Origin: Mesoterricola silvestris | GTDB taxonomy: Bacteria > Acidobacteriota > Holophagae > Holophagales > Holophagaceae | Direction: 5' to 3' | DNA length: 64,000 nucleotides | Assembly: GCF_030295405.1 (NCBI RefSeq) | Contig: NZ_AP027080.1 | Location: 2,542,001 to 2,606,000 of the forward strand | Part shown: one piece after another, positions 1 through 52,827 of the stretch | Numbering within the stretch: position 1 is the stretch's first letter | How the letters are laid out: each line of letters starts with the position of its first letter | Translations under genes and position numbers: made by a program | The notes under the pieces: model-generated | Databases searched by the model: none | The model's input: the letters and a program-made list of their open reading frames with translations, nothing else | What the model was told of the DNA's origin: nothing

Positions 1-69
1 CTCACTCCAGCTATCACTACCGAACCCAGCATATAGTCATCCCATGAAAACTACAGCATTCCCCCTCAG

Positions 70-250
70 CCAGGAATGACCTGGGTTCAGCGCTTCATCC
101 CCTTCATCCTGATCATCCGATTCATCCCTGTTCCAGCAGGGCCATAGCCGGGATGGGTCGGGGCATGCAGAGCAACTGCGCGCCGCCCCACCTCGGCGCT
201 GGCCCTGCGGGAACAGGGATGAATTGGATGGACTGGATGAAGGGGATAGA
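70..250. repeat. Palindromic repeat, copy A
   Basis: First of four copies of a long imperfect palindrome. The left arm begins with CGCTTCATCCCCTTCATCC at 91 and runs through TTCATCCCTGTTCCAGCAGG. The right arm mirrors it with GGCCCTGCGGGAACAGGGAT and GGATGAAGGGGATA, ending near 250. Even the middle is self-complementary (GCCGGGATGGGTCGG against CCGCCCCACCTCGGC), so the whole unit could fold into one long hairpin. The outer left end carries CCAGG-N5-CCTGG at about 71-84. It lies downstream of phoB. The remainder of 1-451 holds nothing else I recognise; reading frames here are by-products of the repeat or antisense to phoB. Confidence 0.85.
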
Positions 251-451
251 AACCGGAAGTGCCAGATTGGACCTGGTGGCTCCAATGCGGATCGTGATTC
301 CGGGCGAGTTGCCCCGACCGAAAATCCGTGCGATTGGACTTACGGTTTTATGAGGTGGGGTGGGTCGGAAAGTTGGCTAGGCCCCCACGGGAGGCCCCAG
401 GGCCCACCCGGCCGAGTACCACGGGCGAAGGTCCGGGGCACGGCCCCTCGC

Positions 452-10080: not shown

Positions 10081-10824
10081 CTGGCCCCCTTCGACCATCT
10101 CTACTGGCTTGCTCCCATCGCCGCCCTGGCCACCCTCCTCGGGGGGTGGCTGGTGGTGCGTTTCCTCCAGGGGCGGGCGGGCCTCATGCGCCACATGTCC
10201 GGCGTGGCGGCCGGCTACCTCATGTCCGTCACCCTGGTGCGCGTCCTGCCCGAGGCCGTGGAACAGGGCGGCGAGCGCATGGCCCTGTGGGCCGTGGCGG
10301 GGTTCTTCCTCATCCACCTGCTGGAGCACGGCATCAGCCCGCACTTCCACTACGGCGAGGAATCCCACACCCACTCGGGTTCGGCCATCACCGGGGTCAT
10401 CGCCCTGGTGGGCCTGAGCCTCCACAGCTTCATGGACGGCATGTCCATCACCGCCGCCATGCGCACCCACAGCGGCCTGGGCCTCATGGTGTTCGCGGGC
10501 GTGCTCCTGCACCGCATCCCCGAAGGGGCGACCATCTCGTCCATCTTCCTGGTGCGGGGCTTCGGCAACCGGAAATCCATCATCGCCGCCGGCATCCTGG
10601 CCCTGGCCGCCCTCCTGGGCTCCATGAGCCAGGAGTACATGAACATCAAGCTGGGGCCCGTCCTGGGCCTCACGGGAGGCCTCGGCCTCTACGTGGCCTG
10701 CTCGGACCTGCTGCCGGAGGCCCAGAAGGAGAAGGGCTGGAAGAGCACCGCCAGCCTCCTGGTGGGGATCCTCATCTTCATCGCCATCCTGAGCCTGGCG
10801 CCCCATCAGCACCATGGCGCATGA
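10081..10824 (+). CDS. ZIP family metal transporter (CTG start)
   Basis: Inner-membrane divalent-metal permease of the ZIP family, 247 aa if started at CTG 10081. The metal sites appear as HSFMDG in TM4 and HRIPEG in TM5, the ZIP hallmark. A histidine-containing loop (HFHYGEESHTHS) lies between TM3 and TM4. GAGGT lies about 7 nt before the CTG. No ATG, GTG or TTG is in frame between the upstream stop at 10069 and GTG 10153, and starting at that GTG would cut into the first membrane helix (LYWLAPIAALATLLGGWLVV). The stop overlaps the next gene's start. Zinc or iron substrate cannot be told. Confidence 0.85.
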   Translation: MAPFDHLYWLAPIAALATLLGGWLVVRFLQGRAGLMRHMSGVAAGYLMSVTLVRVLPEAVEQGGERMALWAVAGFFLIHLLEHGISPHFHYGEESHTHSGSAITGVIALVGLSLHSFMDGMSITAAMRTHSGLGLMVFAGVLLHRIPEGATISSIFLVRGFGNRKSIIAAGILALAALLGSMSQEYMNIKLGPVLGLTGGLGLYVACSDLLPEAQKEKGWKSTASLLVGILIFIAILSLAPHQHHGA

Positions 10825-13132
10825 GCGGCGGACCCGCATAGGTCTCGCCACGGCCCTGGCGGGGCTGGGGCCCCTGGCCGCGCAGCTGCCGCCCCTTCCG
10901 CCCCTGGGGCCCGACTGGCAGGCCCCCACCCCCGGCGAACTGCTTCCCCTGCGCCCCCAGGGCCCCGGGGAGTCCCGGGAGGGGGCGGTGCCCCTGCGCT
11001 ACTGGGGCAAGGACGTGAAGGAGACCCGCGGCGGCTGGGAGATGGACGACGGCGCCGTGGCCAGCCCCGACCTGCTCCTGCTGGCCGACCACATCAAGTA
11101 CAGCACCCTCACCGGCGAGATCGAGGCCGAGGGCCACATCCGCATGGAGGGCCCGGGACTTCGCCTGCGCTGCGGCCGGCTCCACATGGACTGGAAGCGC
11201 CAGGTGGGCGAAGCCTGGGCCCTGGACATGGAGCTGCCCCCCAGCTGGTACCTGAAATCCGACAAGGTGGCCTTCACCACCCTCAAGCACTGGGACTTCG
11301 AGAAGGTGGAACTGAGTCCCTGCCCCCAGGAGCAGCCCGGCTGGAAGGCCCTGGTTTCGCGGCTCACCGTGGACCTGGACAAGTACGCCACCATCCGGAA
11401 CCTCTGGATCTGGGTGGGCAAGGTTCCCACCTTCTACTACCTGCCCTGGGCCGTCTACCCCGCCAAGGCCGAGCGCACCTCGGGGCTGCTGCCCATCTCG
11501 CTCTCCTTCTCCGGCCCCATGGGCGCCTCGACCACCGTGCCCTACTACCAGGTGCTGGGGGACACCGCGGACGTGACGGTGTCCCCGGAATACTTCACCC
11601 GCCAGGGCACCCTCTGGGGCGGGGAGGCCCGGTGGAACCCCGAGCCCACCCACCAGGGCTCCCTGGCGGGGCAGTTCATCAAGCAGCGCACCGATGACAT
11701 GCGCCGGTACCGGTTCTCCCTGAAGGACATCTGGCAGCGGGAGGACGGCTGGCAGTTCGCGGCGGACATCAACCGGGCCTCGGACGCCCTCCTGGAGACC
11801 GACTACGGCCAGGGCCTGGCGCGCCTGGGGGGCACCCCCTTCGACAGCGCCCTGTACCTGGGGCGGAATTTCCCCTGGGCCAGCTTCTCCTTCAATTCAT
11901 CCGAGCAGCTCACCTACTTCACCTCCGATTCCTCCTCCCCCCTCTACAACGCCAACTTTCCCAATTCCCTCCGCCGCCAGGTGCTGCCCAGCGTCCAGGG
12001 CTCGCTGTACCCCGTGCCCCTGGGCTCCTTCTACCTGGACGCCGGCGTGCGCATGGGGCGCATGACCTACAAGCTCGACATCCTCCCCGCCAGCGACGGC
12101 ACGGTCCCCAACGACACCTACGCCTGGCGCCGGGACGACGGCTTCCTGCGCCTCCAGGGCCGGGTGGGGCAGTGGGGCCCCCTGCGGGCGGACCTGGAGA
12201 CCCTGGGCCGCTACACCCGCTATTCCCGCTCCCTGGGGATGTCCCTGTTCGACACGGCCAACGTCACCAACGGAAACCTGAACATCACCACCAGCCCCTT
12301 CCAGGTGGACGCCCCGGCCCTGGACCGGATCCTGGGCTCCGCACGCCTGCAACTCTCCGCCCCCCCCATCGGCCGGTCCTACACGGATGTGAACCTCTTC
12401 GGGTACAAGGGCGAGATCAAGCACGTCATGAACCCCTACTTCGCCGTCCTCAGCACCAGCAAGGCCTCCGCCGAGGGCCGCATCCCCCACTTCGACGACG
12501 TGGACTCCCAGCCCGGCGTGGGCAACAGCGCCGCGGGCGAACGGAGCCTGGAACTGGGCGTGAAGCAGCACTTCCTGGGCCGCCCCGGCCTCAACGTGCC
12601 CTTCCTGGACCTGGTGCGCTGGCGCATCTCCTCCAAGTTCCACATGGCGCCCATCCTCCTCAACGACGGCCAGGTGAAGAAGGGCTGGGCCACCCTGGAC
12701 AACGACCTGGACGTGGAGCCCGACGAGAACCTGCGCATCAGCTTCCGCCGCAGCAGCGACGTGTCCGACAGCGACGCGGACCAGTCCCTGTCCGCCGACT
12801 ACAAGGCCGGCGACGGAACCCGCTTCAACCTGGCCTACTACTCCACCGGCATCAACCGCCTCCTGGTTCGCCAGAAAGGCATCCAGCTGGGCGGCCTCAA
12901 GCGCCTCTGGAACGACGACGTGCGCCTGGAATTCCAGGCCAACTACGATTTCAAGCGCCGCGCCTTCGCCGGCAGCCAGGTGGCCCTGGCCTACGTCACC
13001 CCCTGCGTCGCCTACTCCCTCCGCTTCTCCCACATCGGCATCACCGTCCCCGGCTCCCTCACCAAGGAGGACCGCCTGGACGTGGTCGTCACCCTCCGCA
13101 GCCTCGGCGACCTCGGGAAGTACACCTTCTAG
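10814..13132 (+). CDS. lptD: LPS-assembly outer-membrane protein LptD
   Basis: Outer-membrane LPS translocon, 772 aa. A signal-peptide-like N-terminus ends near the motif PLAAQ. An OstA/LptA-like beta-jellyroll lies around residues 75-200 (ADHIKYSTLTGEIEAEGHIRM), followed by the LptD barrel domain. It includes the family-type segment VPTFYYLPWAVYPAKAERTSG and ends in a strand with terminal phenylalanine (LGKYTF), typical of outer-membrane barrels. The start ATG overlaps the upstream ZIP gene by 11 bp. The paired cysteines of E. coli LptD are not evident in the expected number. LptB, LptCA and LptFG are encoded elsewhere in the window; LptE is not seen. Confidence 0.88.
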   Translation: MAHERRTRIGLATALAGLGPLAAQLPPLPPLGPDWQAPTPGELLPLRPQGPGESREGAVPLRYWGKDVKETRGGWEMDDGAVASPDLLLLADHIKYSTLTGEIEAEGHIRMEGPGLRLRCGRLHMDWKRQVGEAWALDMELPPSWYLKSDKVAFTTLKHWDFEKVELSPCPQEQPGWKALVSRLTVDLDKYATIRNLWIWVGKVPTFYYLPWAVYPAKAERTSGLLPISLSFSGPMGASTTVPYYQVLGDTADVTVSPEYFTRQGTLWGGEARWNPEPTHQGSLAGQFIKQRTDDMRRYRFSLKDIWQREDGWQFAADINRASDALLETDYGQGLARLGGTPFDSALYLGRNFPWASFSFNSSEQLTYFTSDSSSPLYNANFPNSLRRQVLPSVQGSLYPVPLGSFYLDAGVRMGRMTYKLDILPASDGTVPNDTYAWRRDDGFLRLQGRVGQWGPLRADLETLGRYTRYSRSLGMSLFDTANVTNGNLNITTSPFQVDAPALDRILGSARLQLSAPPIGRSYTDVNLFGYKGEIKHVMNPYFAVLSTSKASAEGRIPHFDDVDSQPGVGNSAAGERSLELGVKQHFLGRPGLNVPFLDLVRWRISSKFHMAPILLNDGQVKKGWATLDNDLDVEPDENLRISFRRSSDVSDSDADQSLSADYKAGDGTRFNLAYYSTGINRLLVRQKGIQLGGLKRLWNDDVRLEFQANYDFKRRAFAGSQVALAYVTPCVAYSLRFSHIGITVPGSLTKEDRLDVVVTLRSLGDLGKYTF

Positions 13133-13182: not shown

Positions 13183-13369
13183 CCGGTTTCTATCCCCTTC
13201 ATCCAGTCCATCTGATTCATCCCTGTTCCCGCAGGGCCAGCGCCGGGGTGGGGCGGCGCGTGGTTGCTCTGCATGCCCCGACCCATCCCGGCTATGGCCC
13301 TGCGGGAACAGGGATGAATCGGATGATCAGGATGAAGGGGATGAAGCGCCGAACCCAGGACATTCCTGG
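13183..13369. repeat. Palindromic repeat, copy B (inverted relative to A)
   Basis: Second copy, lying in opposite orientation to copy A and almost identical to its reverse complement. Both share CCGGTTTCTATCCCCTTCAT at one end and the outer palindrome CCAGG-N5-CCTGG at the other (here about 13355-13369). It sits between the 3' ends of lptD and the convergent Cache gene. The stretch 13370-13596 beyond it is partly AT-rich (around 13383-13430), then C-rich, and I find no gene there; short frames in it are not protein-like. Confidence 0.85.
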
Positions 13370-30551: not shown

Positions 30552-30626
30552 TGGGGAGTCGCCAAGTGGTAAGGCAGCAGGTTTTGATCCTGCCTATCGA
30601 GGGTTCGAATCCTTCCTCCCCAACCA
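30552..30626 (+). tRNA. tRNA-Gln (UUG anticodon)
   Basis: 75 nt including an encoded CCA end. The acceptor stem pairs TGGGGAG (30552-30558) with CTCCCCA (30616-30622). The anticodon arm is GCAGG-TTTTGAT-CCTGC with anticodon TTG at 30584-30586, giving glutamine. The T-arm has GGTTCGAATCC. All four arms fold. Its U34 is a target of MnmA, encoded in this window. Palindromic repeat copy C begins 9 nt downstream. Confidence 0.95.
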
Positions 30627-30634
30627 ACCCACTC

Positions 30635-30792
30635 TTTCATCCCCTGTATCCTATTCATCCGATTTCATCCCTGTTCCCGCAGGGCCAGCGATGAGGTGGG
30701 ACGGCGCGCAGGTGACCTGCATGCGTCGACCCATCCCTGCATTGGCCCTGCGGGAACAGGGATGAAATCGTATGAACAGGATGAAGGGGATC
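30635..30792. repeat. Palindromic repeat, copy C
   Basis: Third copy of the family, the most diverged. TTTCATCCCCTGTATCC opens the left arm, then TTCATCCCTGTTCCCGCAGG; the right arm is GGCCCTGCGGGAACAGGGAT then GAACAGGATGAAGGGGAT. The centre again carries GATGAGGTGGGACGGCG facing CGTCGACCCATCCCTGC. It occupies the gap between tRNA-Gln and the 3' end of the convergent aminotransferase gene. The outer CCAGG palindrome seen in other copies is not clear here. Confidence 0.8.
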
Positions 30793-30816
30793 AGCCTTGG
30801 AACTCCGTCCACGGCA

Positions 30817-47753: not shown

Positions 47754-50700
47754 ATGACCCGAGCTCTGACTGTCAGCCAGCAGGCCAGAATCCTGAAATG
47801 GGCCATGGAACGTGGTCTGCTCACCCAGGAGGAGATCGGCCTGTCCACCCGGGACGATGCGGCCACCCTTTCCGAGGCGGATCTGTCCGAACGCTTCAAC
47901 GCCCTCCATGCGGCGGGCCGGCTCAAGGGCGTCATGGACACGGCCCTGGCCTGGGACCAGGCGGACACCGCCGTCACCTCCGGCACCCCGGACTGGATCA
48001 AGGCCATGGGGGAGGTGGCCGCGGCCATGGACCCCGAGGACCTGGCGGGCTTCGCCCTGCCCCGGGACGGGCGCTACCTCCCCCTGGCCTTCCTGGGGGA
48101 CGGCGGCATGGGCTGTGTGTACAAGGCCTTCGACCAGCAGCTCAAGCGGGTGGTGGCCCTGAAGTTCCTCAAGCGCCTGGAGCGGGCGCCCATGGACCGC
48201 TTCATCCAGGAGGGCCGGTCCCAGGCCCGCATCGAGCACCCCAATATCTGCAACGTCTATTCGGTGGATGAATTCGAGGGCCAGCCCTACCTCTCCATGC
48301 GCTTCATCGCGGGCCCCACCCTCCGGGCCGCGCTGCCCCGGCTCAGCCTGGAGCAGAAGGTGGGCATCCTCATGCGGGTGGCCCAGGCCCTGCAGTGCTG
48401 CCACCGGGAGGGCATCGTCCACCGGGATATCAAGCCCACCAACATCATGCTCGAAGCCCGGGAGGACGGGTCCTGGTGGCCCTTCCTCATGGATTTCGGC
48501 CTGGCCCGGGACCTGGGCGACCAGGGGCTGACGGTCCCGGGGATGATCATCGGAACCCCCATCTACTGCAGCCCCGAGCAGGTGCAGGGCCGCATGGGGG
48601 ACGTGGACCGGCGTTCGGACGTCTATTCCCTGGGGGCCACCCTGTACGATTGCCTGGTGGGCGAGCCCCCCTTCCCCTCCGGCGGCGCCCTGGTGGACCT
48701 CATCCGCCGCATTTCCGAGGAGGACCCCGTTCCGCCCCGGCAGCGCGTCCCGGGCTTCCCCAAGGATCTCCAGACCATCGTCATGAAGGCCCTGGAGAAG
48801 GACCCCGACCGCCGGTACGAATCCGCCCGGGCCCTGGCGGAGGATCTGCAGCGGTACCTGGACGGGGACCCCATCCAGGCCCACCACACGACCCTCACGT
48901 ACCGCATCGCCAGGCGCGTCCGCAAGAACCGCGCCCTCGCCCTGGTCACCGCGTTCTCCCTCCTGGCGGTGCTGGGCTTCGCCGCCTTCGGGATCACCAT
49001 GGCCGTGCGGGCCCGGGTGCAGGGGCAGGCCATCCAGCGGTACGGCCGGGAGGCCGAGTACCTGGAAGGCATCCTGCTCAAGGCCTACACCCTGCCCCTC
49101 CATGACGTGCGCACGGAACGCGCCCATGTGGAGCAGCACCTGGAACGCATCCGCGCGTCCATGGACACCCTGGGGCGCTGGTCCCGTCCCGCGGCCCGTC
49201 TGGCGTTGGGGCGCGGCTACCTGGCCCTGGATCGCTTGGAGGAGGCCCGGCGCGAACTGGAACCGGCCCCGGGCGCCATCCCCCAGGACCCGGACCATGC
49301 CCTGGCCCTGGGCCTCACCCTCACCCGCCTCTACCAGGCCGAACTGGAGGGCCTGCGCGGCAAGGCCCTGGAGGAACGCAAGCGGGATACCGAGCAGGAC
49401 CTGCGGCGGCCGGCCCTGGCCTGCCTGCGCCGCGCCCAGGGGGCCCACCAGGACGGCCCCGCCTACGTGGAGGGCATGCTCGCCCTGGTGGAGGAACGCT
49501 ACGCCGACGCCATCGACAAGGCCAAGGAGTATGAGCGCACGGCCCCCTGGGCCTACGAGGCCTGGATCCTGGAAGCCGATGCCCAGCGGGGCCTGGCGGC
49601 CCTGGCCTACGGCCGGGGGGATTTCGACGGCACCGAGCAGCGCCTGGCCCTGGCCGCCGAGCCCCTCCTCCAGGCCCGCAACGTGGCCCGCAGCGCCCCC
49701 CTGGCCTACCAGGGCGAGGTGCAGCGCCGCATGATCCTCTTCCAGCTGAACCTGGACCGGGGCCGGGCCACGGAGGCCGACCGGGACTGGGCCCTGGAGG
49801 CCGCGGACATGTGCCTGACCGCCAACCCCGGCGACTGGAAGACCCTGGGGTACCGCGCCGCCATCCACCGCCGCTGGGGGGTCACGCTCATGAACCGGAA
49901 TCTGGACCCCACCGCCAGCCTCGACGCCGCCGTGGCGGACGCCGAGCGGGGCCTGGCCGTGCGTCCCACCGACAATCCCCTGTGGAACAACCTGGGCACC
50001 TGCCTGCGCAACCGCGCCGACTGGGAGCTGCGCCGGGGCCTGGATCCCACCCGCACCCTCGCCCGGGCCGTGGAGGCCCTGGGCAAGGGCCTGGACCGGC
50101 CCCAGTACAAGGACTGGCTCCTGGACAGCATCGGCAACTGCCACGCCCTCCTGGGCCACTACCAGCTGGAGCATGGCCAGGACCCCACCCGGGCCGTGCT
50201 CATGGCCGTGGACCTCCTGGGCCAGGCCGCGGCCCTCAAGCCCTGGGTGGGCCACAATTCCTCCCAGGGCTACGCCCTGGCGGACCTGGCCGCCTGGCTC
50301 AAGCTGTCGGGCCAGGATCCCATGCCCCGGTACGAGGAGGCCCGCAGGGCCTTCGAGGCCGGCCTGGGCCTCAACGCCAATTCCTACCTGTCCCACCTGG
50401 GCATCGCGAACCTCCTGCTGGACCGGGCCGAAACGGAGCTGGAGCGGGGCGGCGCCCCCGGCCGCGATCTCACCCAGGCCGCCGAGCACCTGGAAGCGGC
50501 CTTGAAGGTGAACCCCCGCACCGGTCCCGAGGTCTACCCCGCCCGTGCCCGGTGCCGCGCCCTGGAGGCGCTGGCCACCCGGTCCACCCGGACGCTGGCC
50601 GCCGCCCGGGCCGATCTGGCCAAGGCGTCCAGGGTTTCCACGGGCCGCCCCGAGGCCGCCCTGGCCATGGCCCAGGCCTGGCTCCTGGTGCACCGGGCCG

Positions 50701-50903
50701 ATCCCCGCAGCGGCGCGGCCGCCCAGGGCCTCGCGGCCCTGCGCCCGGCCCTGGCGGGCCTGCCCTGGTTCGCCCAGGTCAAGGTCACCGAAGGAAGGCT
50801 TCTGGCCGCCCTGGGCCGGCCGATCGAGGCGGAGAAGGCCTACGCCAGGGCGTCCGCGCTGAACCCCGGCCTGGGGAAAGGCCCCGGTTCAGCGCGGACG
50901 TGA
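47754..50903 (+). CDS. Membrane Ser/Thr protein kinase with TPR-like C-terminus
   Basis: 1049 aa. Hanks-type kinase domain at about residues 106-375: glycine loop LGDGGMGCVYKA, catalytic loop HRDIKPTNIM near 222 and DFGLAR near 246. One membrane helix (ALVTAFSLLAVLGFAAFGITM) near 395-417. The 620-residue extracytoplasmic C-terminus consists of helical TPR-like repeats with conserved Trp/Leu spacing. A 100-residue N-terminal helical region precedes the kinase. Related kinases regulate envelope and development in diverse bacteria; no phosphatase is adjacent. Confidence 0.9.
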   Translation: MTRALTVSQQARILKWAMERGLLTQEEIGLSTRDDAATLSEADLSERFNALHAAGRLKGVMDTALAWDQADTAVTSGTPDWIKAMGEVAAAMDPEDLAGFALPRDGRYLPLAFLGDGGMGCVYKAFDQQLKRVVALKFLKRLERAPMDRFIQEGRSQARIEHPNICNVYSVDEFEGQPYLSMRFIAGPTLRAALPRLSLEQKVGILMRVAQALQCCHREGIVHRDIKPTNIMLEAREDGSWWPFLMDFGLARDLGDQGLTVPGMIIGTPIYCSPEQVQGRMGDVDRRSDVYSLGATLYDCLVGEPPFPSGGALVDLIRRISEEDPVPPRQRVPGFPKDLQTIVMKALEKDPDRRYESARALAEDLQRYLDGDPIQAHHTTLTYRIARRVRKNRALALVTAFSLLAVLGFAAFGITMAVRARVQGQAIQRYGREAEYLEGILLKAYTLPLHDVRTERAHVEQHLERIRASMDTLGRWSRPAARLALGRGYLALDRLEEARRELEPAPGAIPQDPDHALALGLTLTRLYQAELEGLRGKALEERKRDTEQDLRRPALACLRRAQGAHQDGPAYVEGMLALVEERYADAIDKAKEYERTAPWAYEAWILEADAQRGLAALAYGRGDFDGTEQRLALAAEPLLQARNVARSAPLAYQGEVQRRMILFQLNLDRGRATEADRDWALEAADMCLTANPGDWKTLGYRAAIHRRWGVTLMNRNLDPTASLDAAVADAERGLAVRPTDNPLWNNLGTCLRNRADWELRRGLDPTRTLARAVEALGKGLDRPQYKDWLLDSIGNCHALLGHYQLEHGQDPTRAVLMAVDLLGQAAALKPWVGHNSSQGYALADLAAWLKLSGQDPMPRYEEARRAFEAGLGLNANSYLSHLGIANLLLDRAETELERGGAPGRDLTQAAEHLEAALKVNPRTGPEVYPARARCRALEALATRSTRTLAAARADLAKASRVSTGRPEAALAMAQAWLLVHRADPRSGAAAQGLAALRPALAGLPWFAQVKVTEGRLLAALGRPIEAEKAYARASALNPGLGKGPGSART

Positions 50904-50943: not shown

Positions 50944-51136
50944 ATGACCTGGATTCGCCGCTTCATCCCCTTTATCCCTTTCATCAAATTCATCCCCGTT
51001 CCAGCAGGGCCAGCGCCGGGGTGGGGCGGCGCGCAGGTGATCCGCATGCGCCGACCCATCCCGGCTTTGGCCCTGCGGTAACAGGGATGAATCTGATGAA
51101 AGGGATGAAGGGGATGAAACGGTTATACCAGGTCAT
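50944..51136. repeat. Palindromic repeat, copy D (full-length)
   Basis: The best-defined copy, 193 bp, bounded by the terminal inverted repeat ATGACCTGG (50944-50952) and CCAGGTCAT (51128-51136). Arms: CGCTTCATCCCCTTTATCCC and TTCATCCCCGTTCCAGCAGG on the left; GGCCCTGCGGTAACAGGGAT and GGGATGAAGGGGATGAAACG on the right. The centre is GCCGGGGTGGGGCGGCGCG facing CGCCGACCCATCCCGGC. It lies between the 3' ends of the kinase gene and the convergent small-protein gene. Nothing else is recognised in 50904-51200. Confidence 0.88.
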
Positions 51137-51200
51137 GCCCGGCTTAATTACTGACTTTGGTGATGATCGCCGGAGTGAGCCCGGTAATTGAACCAGGACT

Positions 51201-51345: not shown

Positions 51346-52827
51346 TTATTGGTTAATAATTCCCGGCAGCGCGAACCCGAACACCGCCCCGCCCCCTTCC
51401 GGGGCCTCGGCCCAGACCCGGCCGCCCATTCGCCGGATGCTGCGCTTGATGCTGGCCAGGCCCACGCCCGATCCGGGGAACTGCTGGTCCGTGTGCAGGC
51501 GCTGGAAGACCGTGAACAGCCGGTGGGCCTGGCGCGGGTCGAAGCCGGCGCCGTTGTCCCGCACCGTCACCAGGACCTCGCCGGCCTCCACCCTCCCGGC
51601 CACCCGGATGCGCGCCTGGGGCTGGTTCCGGGTGAATTTCACGGCGTTGGACAGGAGGTTGGTGAGCACCTCCCGCAGCAGGGTCGGGTCGCCGGTGACC
51701 GGCGGCAGGGGCGTGAGCTCCCAGACCAGATCCCGGTCCCGGATCTCCGGGCCTATGGCGTCGATGGCCAAGGCGGCCATGGCGTCCAGATCCACGCGCT
51801 CCCGGCGCGTCTCCCCGCCCCCGGAGCGGGAGAGGGCCAGGAGATGGTCCAGCAGGTGGCCCATGTTGCCCGCGGAGCGCCGGATGGTGGCGAGCCAGTG
51901 GCGGCCCGTTTCCGTCAGGTGGGTCTCCTCCTGGGAGGCCAGCAGGTCCGCGAACCCGGCGATGTGGCGGATGGGCGCCCGCAGGTCGTGGGCGATGGCG
52001 GAGCCGAACGCGTCCAGTTCCTGCACGGATTCCTCCAGCAGGGCCGCGCGGGCTTCCAGGGCCTGGTTCCGGGCCGCGGCGGCCCGCTCCCGGAGCTTGC
52101 GCTCGCTGATCTCGATGCTGAAAATGGCCACGGTCTCGAAGGCCGGGCGGAACGCGAAGACCTCCAGGGCGATGGGGTGCAGCTCCCCCATGAATTCGAA
52201 GTGGGCCGGCAGGCCCGTGAGGGCCACGGCCATTTCGGTCTCCTGCAGGGACCGGCTCACGTTGGGCCACAGGGACAAATGGTTCCGGCCCACCACGTCC
52301 TCCCGGCGGAATCCGAAGTAGTTCATGAAGTACCGGTTGCCGTCCAGGAGGCGCAGGTCCACCGGCCGGCCTTCCGCGTCCCGCACCACCTGGCTCAGGT
52401 GGAACCCGGAATTCATGTTCGCCAGCAGGCTGTGGTAGCCGAGGCTGCCCGTGGCCCTGCGCAGCGCCTGGGAAGGCGGGGCCAAGGGGCGCCGCAGGCG
52501 GGGCCGCGTGGTCCAGGTGCGCACCAGCATGCCCTCGGGTTCCGGTTCCGCCGTGAAGGTCAGGCGATCGGTCTCCCGTCCGGTCAGGGAGCCCGTGAAA
52601 TGCCGCGCCACGCCGGTTTCCAGACAGGCCCGCAGCAGGACCATGCCCATGGCCCGTTCGCCGCCGGGGAAAAGCTCCGGGAGCGTCCGCCCGAGGGCCC
52701 CGGCCCGGGGGATCCCCAGGTGCTGGGCGCCAGCGGCGTTGAGGTACCGGACCCGCCCCTCCCGGTCCAGGAAGATGCAGCCTTCTGGCAGGCGGTCTAA
52801 CAGCCGTTCGCCGAAGGTCCCCTCCAT
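51346..52827 (-). CDS. PAS-domain sensor histidine kinase
   Basis: 493 aa, no membrane segments. Two PAS domains (about 8-110 and 125-245); the first begins LPEGCIFLDREGRVRYLN. A coiled linker leads to HisKA with the acceptor near residue 280 in AIAHDLRAPIRHIAGF. The ATPase domain has NLLSNAVKFT, DNGAGFD and GSGVGLASIK, close to the bacteriophytochrome-like / light-sensor kinase class. It has no receiver domain and no adjacent response regulator. ATG 52827 follows GGAGGCAGGGAA. Confidence 0.9.
   Translation of the reverse strand: MEGTFGERLLDRLPEGCIFLDREGRVRYLNAAGAQHLGIPRAGALGRTLPELFPGGERAMGMVLLRACLETGVARHFTGSLTGRETDRLTFTAEPEPEGMLVRTWTTRPRLRRPLAPPSQALRRATGSLGYHSLLANMNSGFHLSQVVRDAEGRPVDLRLLDGNRYFMNYFGFRREDVVGRNHLSLWPNVSRSLQETEMAVALTGLPAHFEFMGELHPIALEVFAFRPAFETVAIFSIEISERKLRERAAAARNQALEARAALLEESVQELDAFGSAIAHDLRAPIRHIAGFADLLASQEETHLTETGRHWLATIRRSAGNMGHLLDHLLALSRSGGGETRRERVDLDAMAALAIDAIGPEIRDRDLVWELTPLPPVTGDPTLLREVLTNLLSNAVKFTRNQPQARIRVAGRVEAGEVLVTVRDNGAGFDPRQAHRLFTVFQRLHTDQQFPGSGVGLASIKRSIRRMGGRVWAEAPEGGGAVFGFALPGIINQ

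Follow-up and report, generated by a model that had tools for sequence, protein, structure and literature searches.

CTAG-bounded palindromic elements of Mesoterricola silvestris: a probable MITE-like family with a core related to GxxExxY hairpin arms

The long near-palindromic repeats that occur four times within a 64,000-nucleotide stretch of the Mesoterricola silvestris genome (hereafter the window) are, in our best reading, the middle parts of a new MITE-like element family that targets CTAG at stop codons and whose core stems from a hairpin module around GxxExxY genes. Taken jointly, the observations make it likely that these are non-autonomous, MITE-like transposons that are served in trans by a DDE transposase, duplicate CTAG and took their core from the GxxExxY arms of IS5-family elements.

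Copies and architecture of the family

The four palindromic copies that the original prediction had picked out in the window are real, as the window contains eight half-sites of the 23-mer GGCCCTGCGGGAACAGGGATGAA, all matching with at most three mismatches, versus 0 expected in shuffled sequence. Across the genome (a single contig of 4,994,678 bp) 193 half-sites were counted (97 + 96) and the reversed control pattern was found 0 times, with a constant half-site spacing of 80 bp in almost all copies. Seventy-two copies were retrieved and inspected within 4 kb of surrounding sequence. With four extra copies located near isolated end repeats, the family comprises at least 76 copies in the 4.99 Mb genome, and the true copy number is probably near 100. 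The further copies on which the original prediction had made its family depend are hence present, and the search that it had proposed for the relatives, carried out with the half-site pattern in 40 genomes, returned a few copies each in three of the five congeners and none in the 35 more distant genomes. In GTDB r220, the half-site pattern matched Holophagaceae bacterium UBA706 along with two apparently chance sequences, and the exact two-arm pattern gave no match. That the core belongs to no named family was upheld insofar as our literature searches revealed no account of it; it has to be qualified insofar as the core is homologous to the arms that flank GxxExxY in a resident IS5-family element. 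A match to a described insertion element, which would have spoken against novelty, was likewise not found as such, apart from this partial relation to IS5.

The near-palindrome is only the middle of the element. If the copies are read outward, further shared arms follow, which finish in CTAGCCCAnGTTTCCGACCCACCCC on both sides, and the sequence beyond CTAG differs and is unrelated from copy to copy; the whole element carries CTAG plus the 21-bp inverted repeat CCCAnGTTTCCGACCCACCCC at its ends. The best match to the resulting 25-mer (CTAG plus repeat) reached 20-24 of 25 positions in 41 of 144 flanks, compared to a maximum of 18 in background sequence of equal length. Both end repeats were recognisable in 18 of the 72 copies, one in 28 and none in 26, and the copies with both ends measure 275-457 bp. 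Within the window only copy A represents a complete element (Table 1), and the ends of copies B, C and D are decayed or rearranged, without clear end repeats. The pair ATGACCTGG/CCAGGTCAT of copy D, previously taken for terminal inverted repeats, turned out to be an inner arm, as complete relatives extend beyond it to CTAG-tipped end repeats. Copy C is preceded by a tRNA gene (30552-30623) and followed by a gene that is oriented towards it. Next to copy D, at the extreme 3' end of the open reading frame on its left, a separate GC-rich hairpin (window 50850-50901) with a perfect 15-bp stem CGTCCGCGCTGAACC/GGTTCAGCGCGGACG is present.

Table 1. Palindromic elements in the window and the reading frames beside copy D (window coordinates)
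Feature	Position	Strand	Remarks
Copy A, complete element	1..380	-	locus L090; window span -16 to 380
Copy A, left CTAG	16 bp before window (genome 2541984)		starts outside window
Copy A, right CTAG	377-380
Copy A, end repeats	about -16..8 and 357-381
Copy A, core palindrome	92..252	-
Copy B, probable left edge (CTAG)	13129..13132	+	holds TAG stop of ORF 10814-13132; end repeat not recognisable
Copy B, core palindrome	13187..13347	+	locus L091
Copy C, core palindrome	30635..30795	+	locus L092; no end repeats found
Copy D, core with inner arms ATGACCTGG/CCAGGTCAT	50944..51137	+	locus L093; outer ends degenerate
Copy D, core palindrome	50960..51120	+
ORF ending just left of copy D	47754..50903	+	convergent partner
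ORF reading towards copy D from the right	51346..52827	-	convergent partner

The suggestion of a MITE-like nature is borne out by the inverted end repeats, the duplicated CTAG, the empty orthologous sites described below, the many copies and the lack of an own reading frame, the latter also agreeing with the earlier observation that no transposase frame lies inside. Since the outer arms occur in several alternative types among the copies, the elements are mosaics. Within the same elements, the mean pairwise identity is 83% in the core, compared to 60-64% in the outer arms and 71% in the end repeats. Simple transposon decay does not explain why the core is better conserved than the outer arms and ends; the difference could stem from selection acting on the core, from gene conversion among the palindromes or from the core moving by itself.

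The CTAG target and the placement at stop codons

In order to find empty sites, the flanks of an element were joined and searched in the congeners. The element at genome position 3006535 is absent from congener G004, in which GACGAGTTCTAG is joined directly to AACCTGAGG across two convergent genes whose stops overlap within one CTAG; in M. silvestris the element sits between CTAA and CTAG, and both genes retain a stop. The site at 702732 is empty in G004 as well, where GACAGCTAG runs directly into ATCGCC, and the one at 1497339 is empty in G001 and G005. CTAG is hence single in the congeners and double in M. silvestris, which answers the earlier call for a check of target-site duplications: insertion duplicates CTAG. 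Sequence divergence from the congeners amounts to about 15% at these loci, so that movement is documented by comparing species and not within a strain.

At 39 of the 64 detected ends, the flanking gene terminates in frame at the TAG within CTAG. According to a heuristic frame caller, the neighbouring genes are convergent for 53 of the 72 copies, co-directional for 17 and divergent for two. In the window CTAG is about fourfold rarer than expected (14 versus 59), and 28 of 43 CTAG sites outside the elements abut a long open frame. Because CTAG is scarce in this GC-rich genome and mostly found at gene ends, elements that enter it land at stop codons, and the targeting of CTAG together with survival can account for their positions at gene ends. 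Where convergent genes overlap by their stops, with C TAG read from both sides, the duplication would hand each gene its own stop and neither would be harmed.

From our point of view it is improbable, if conceivable, that the hairpin is kept at gene 3' ends mainly for regulation at the level of RNA or DNA, for example as a terminator working in both directions, as an insulator or as an mRNA stabiliser, with mobility being secondary. The 3'-end placement, with 53 of 72 copies between convergent genes, would suit such a role, as would the identity of the core (83% versus 60-71% in the outer parts), a very stable fold and an excess of pairing-preserving changes over shuffles (18 versus 7.3 cells). 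On the other hand, the same gene pairs exist in congeners without the element, and the stop-codon placement is predicted by CTAG targeting alone. The fold itself speaks to both sides: the predicted folding energies of the two strands of copy D are -160 and -166 kcal/mol (z = -16 and -18), each more stable than shuffled sequence by about 80 kcal/mol, and it is this equal folding of both strands that argues against a regulatory RNA. Across 40 copies, 97% of the predicted pair cells are standard, and the pairing-preserving differences pointed out earlier are a real signal, the 18 cells being double changes, yet a modest one confined to six of 49 pairs. Palindrome correction or constraints on a DNA cruciform would yield the same pairing pattern. 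G-T mismatches seemed to outnumber A-C mismatches, an imbalance that was set aside because the structure had been fitted to that very strand by RNA rules. Rfam returned only a tRNA in the window and no family for the palindromes, and copy D showed no terminator consensus. The alternative proposal of a structured RNA thus lost ground on four counts, namely the missing Rfam match, the missing terminator consensus at copy D, the equal folding of both strands and the weak covariation, and a structured-RNA role has little support.

Relation of the core to IS5-family elements and GxxExxY genes

M. silvestris carries two IS5-family elements (NF033580; L281 at genome position 139397 and L285 at 840518), with ends reading CTAG followed by GGGCTGTCGGCAAACC, a transposase in two frames and a GxxExxY gene; IS5 and GxxExxY (TIGR04256, PF13366; PDDEXK_3) were assigned by NCBIfam and Pfam. 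At L095 (3158-4001) there is a third copy with an internal deletion. The segment to the right of GxxExxY aligns in both IS5 copies to the right half of the palindrome core (score 51 versus shuffle maxima of 30 and 29; 0 of 500 shuffles each), and the segment to its left aligns strongly to the left half of a G004 core (76 versus 35 in shuffles). According to BLAST, L033 of G004 combines the left arm of the insertion sequence with its right arm, the latter matching as far as the tip (1.6e-10), whilst in L113 and L119 of M. silvestris the transposase tail and left arm are joined to the right arm with the gene absent. Judged by their sequence, some copies are deletion derivatives of an IS5-family element. 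The internal sequence shared with IS5 consists of the core arms, which correspond to the arms flanking GxxExxY. The IS5 ends (GGGGCTGTCGGCAAACC) differ from those of the palindromic elements of M. silvestris; L033 of G004 shares the IS5 end and L047 nearly does so. Given the arm homology and the gene-less deletion derivatives, the palindrome is best read as a gene-less hairpin of a GxxExxY module: the inner palindrome would represent two hairpin arms around a GxxExxY cargo (PD-(D/E)XK-like) whose gene was lost, originating from the CTAG-targeting IS5-family elements of the genus.

GxxExxY genes reside on IS5 elements in M. silvestris and G001 and on an IS630 element in G004, and the copies of the latter two genomes have other long inverted repeats of short units. 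In a small sample of nine plasmid-borne GxxExxY genes from other phyla, inverted repeats of 28-32 bp lie on both sides of three genes; they are composed of short degenerate units (CACAGAGG or CCTCTGCGG type) and score above all 300 shuffles. The other six are without such repeats. The three genes (L294, L295 and L296, from Bacteroides, Gemmatirosa and Bernardetia) lie in short intergenic gaps where annotated. Searches for GxxExxY in viral contigs and phages gave no match.

One could imagine that the core itself is mobile or converting, i.e., that GxxExxY and its hairpin arms move or copy independently and enter or homogenise older CTAG elements, the palindromes being solo forms, a scenario that we regard as unlikely. 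It would account for a core that is better conserved than the ends of its carriers, for the G001 carriers with the same ends and a different core, for the G004 cores with IS5 ends, for the occurrence of GxxExxY on both IS5 and IS630, and for the three unrelated plasmid genes inside long inverted repeats. However, no core-only insertion junction was found, six of the nine plasmid genes are without such repeats, and gene conversion could account for the core conservation. L267 of G001 (1500-2660) shares the end repeat of the palindromic elements; it is seemingly interrupted by an IS256-like frame, identified by eye, and followed by a truncated GxxExxY gene.

At a still more general level, one could speculate, albeit with little confidence, that nuclease-like GxxExxY genes and long hairpin arms of short degenerate units form a mobile module that travels on unrelated transposons (IS5, IS630) across phyla. 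The gene product would copy or homogenise the arms by acting on hairpin DNA, and the palindromes between genes, those of the TTCATCC type and of the CACAGAGG/CCTCTGCG type, would be gene-less solo forms.

Candidate mobilisers and comparison with known systems

In the reading that we prefer, i.e., MITE-like transposons mobilised in trans, a DDE-type transposase would recognise the end repeats and insert the element into CTAG, thereby duplicating it. The movement would be of the cut-and-paste kind and the enzyme presumably of the IS5 type. Several findings count against this reading, namely that no autonomous element combining the same end repeats with a transposase gene was found in the genome or the congeners, that the IS5 ends differ, that 26 of the 72 copies are without recognisable ends and 28 have one, that the core is better conserved than the arms and ends around it and that movement is seen by comparing species and not within a strain.

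CTAG is also the target of unrelated palindromes and of IS630 and IS5 elements in the genus, sometimes at identical sites. Two IS5 copies of M. silvestris carry CTAG at each end, and IS630 elements at CTAG occur in G004 and G005. Seven copies of the IS630-family element are present in G004 (L192, L194 and L197-L201; about 1.9 kb and carrying a GxxExxY gene), with CTAG at all examined ends and with a hairpin of CCTCGG units (-127 kcal/mol) between transposase and cargo. A second, unrelated and CTAG-bounded palindrome family (GAGGCTGTCCACGTATT...) exists in G004 and G005, with members at L239 (G005:C236), L246, L249 and L200 (2780-3054, G004), and several G005 contigs terminate inside it. The insertion site of the M. 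silvestris copy L089 is occupied in G004 by a 277-bp member of this second family and an IS630 element. The scar CTAGGAGGN{0,6}CTAG occurs five times in the genus, four times at positions orthologous to M. silvestris insertion sites; such CTAG-GAGG(xx)-CTAG scars were seen at L186, L189 and L190 of G005 and L187 of G002. These scars could be taken for traces left by the M. silvestris family, but they fit better as what is left of the second palindrome family, which is present in G005. In addition, an IS200-like TnpA frame, recognised by eye, starts just outside the right side of a palindromic element in G004 (L043).

A mobiliser of the IS630 family (Tc1/mariner), which would have duplicated TA inside CTAG and since been lost from the genome, is possible, if rather doubtful. 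IS630-family elements insert into TA and duplicate it (PMC2170065), the G004 and G005 representatives sit at CTAG, and at L084 the two outer bases differ as a TA duplication allows; CTAG at most ends is compatible with a 4-bp and a TA duplication alike. However, the IS630 ends (GTGTAGG...) are unlike those of the palindromic elements, and the core homology is to IS5 elements. As a resident mobiliser, IS630 was dismissed, as no PF13358 match is present in the genome. REPIN- or BIME-type repeats moved by a RAYT (Y1 HUH transposase) are a highly improbable explanation: the many intergenic palindromes would fit and RAYTs have been described from Acidobacteria (PMC3733652), but the target duplication and end repeats suggest DDE chemistry, and the units exceed by far the 20-40 bp of REPs (PMC3733652). 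A resident RAYT/REPIN system was discarded, since PF01797 had no match in the genome while the same search was positive in five control genomes.

With regard to known systems, the elements resemble REP, REPIN and BIME sequences with RAYT as high-copy intergenic palindromes and differ by their larger size, their end repeats and target duplication and the lack of a detected RAYT. With the IS5-family elements of the genus they share CTAG at both ends, and the arms of the IS5 cargo gene are homologous to the core; unlike them, IS5 has another end repeat, measures 1.5 kb and encodes a transposase and GxxExxY. The IS630-family elements of the genus have the CTAG target in common with them and also carry GxxExxY and a long hairpin, but differ in end repeats and hairpin units and were not detected in this genome. 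As in IS1272 (IS1182 family), which replaces inverted repeats upon transposition and leaves no target duplication (PMC5678879), mobile DNA is tied to palindromic sites, whereas here CTAG is duplicated.

Correia elements and RUP are bacterial MITEs, short, gene-less, intergenic and multicopy, with inverted end repeats and a target duplication. The M. silvestris elements correspond to them in all of these traits and depart from them in being near-palindromic through the centre, in their CTAG target at stop codons, in their mosaic outer arms, in a core common to the GxxExxY module and in that no partner was found.

Overall, the family illustrates a safe-harbour strategy that works without special machinery: the elements target CTAG, a sequence that selection restricts largely to gene ends, and the duplication of CTAG leaves both genes with overlapping stops intact. 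Several unrelated elements of one genus share these insertion sites. The link between palindrome and GxxExxY further provides an explanation, open to testing, both for a gene family that is hardly covered by the literature, with two papers in the library searched, and for a type of repeat that is easily mistaken for a structured RNA.
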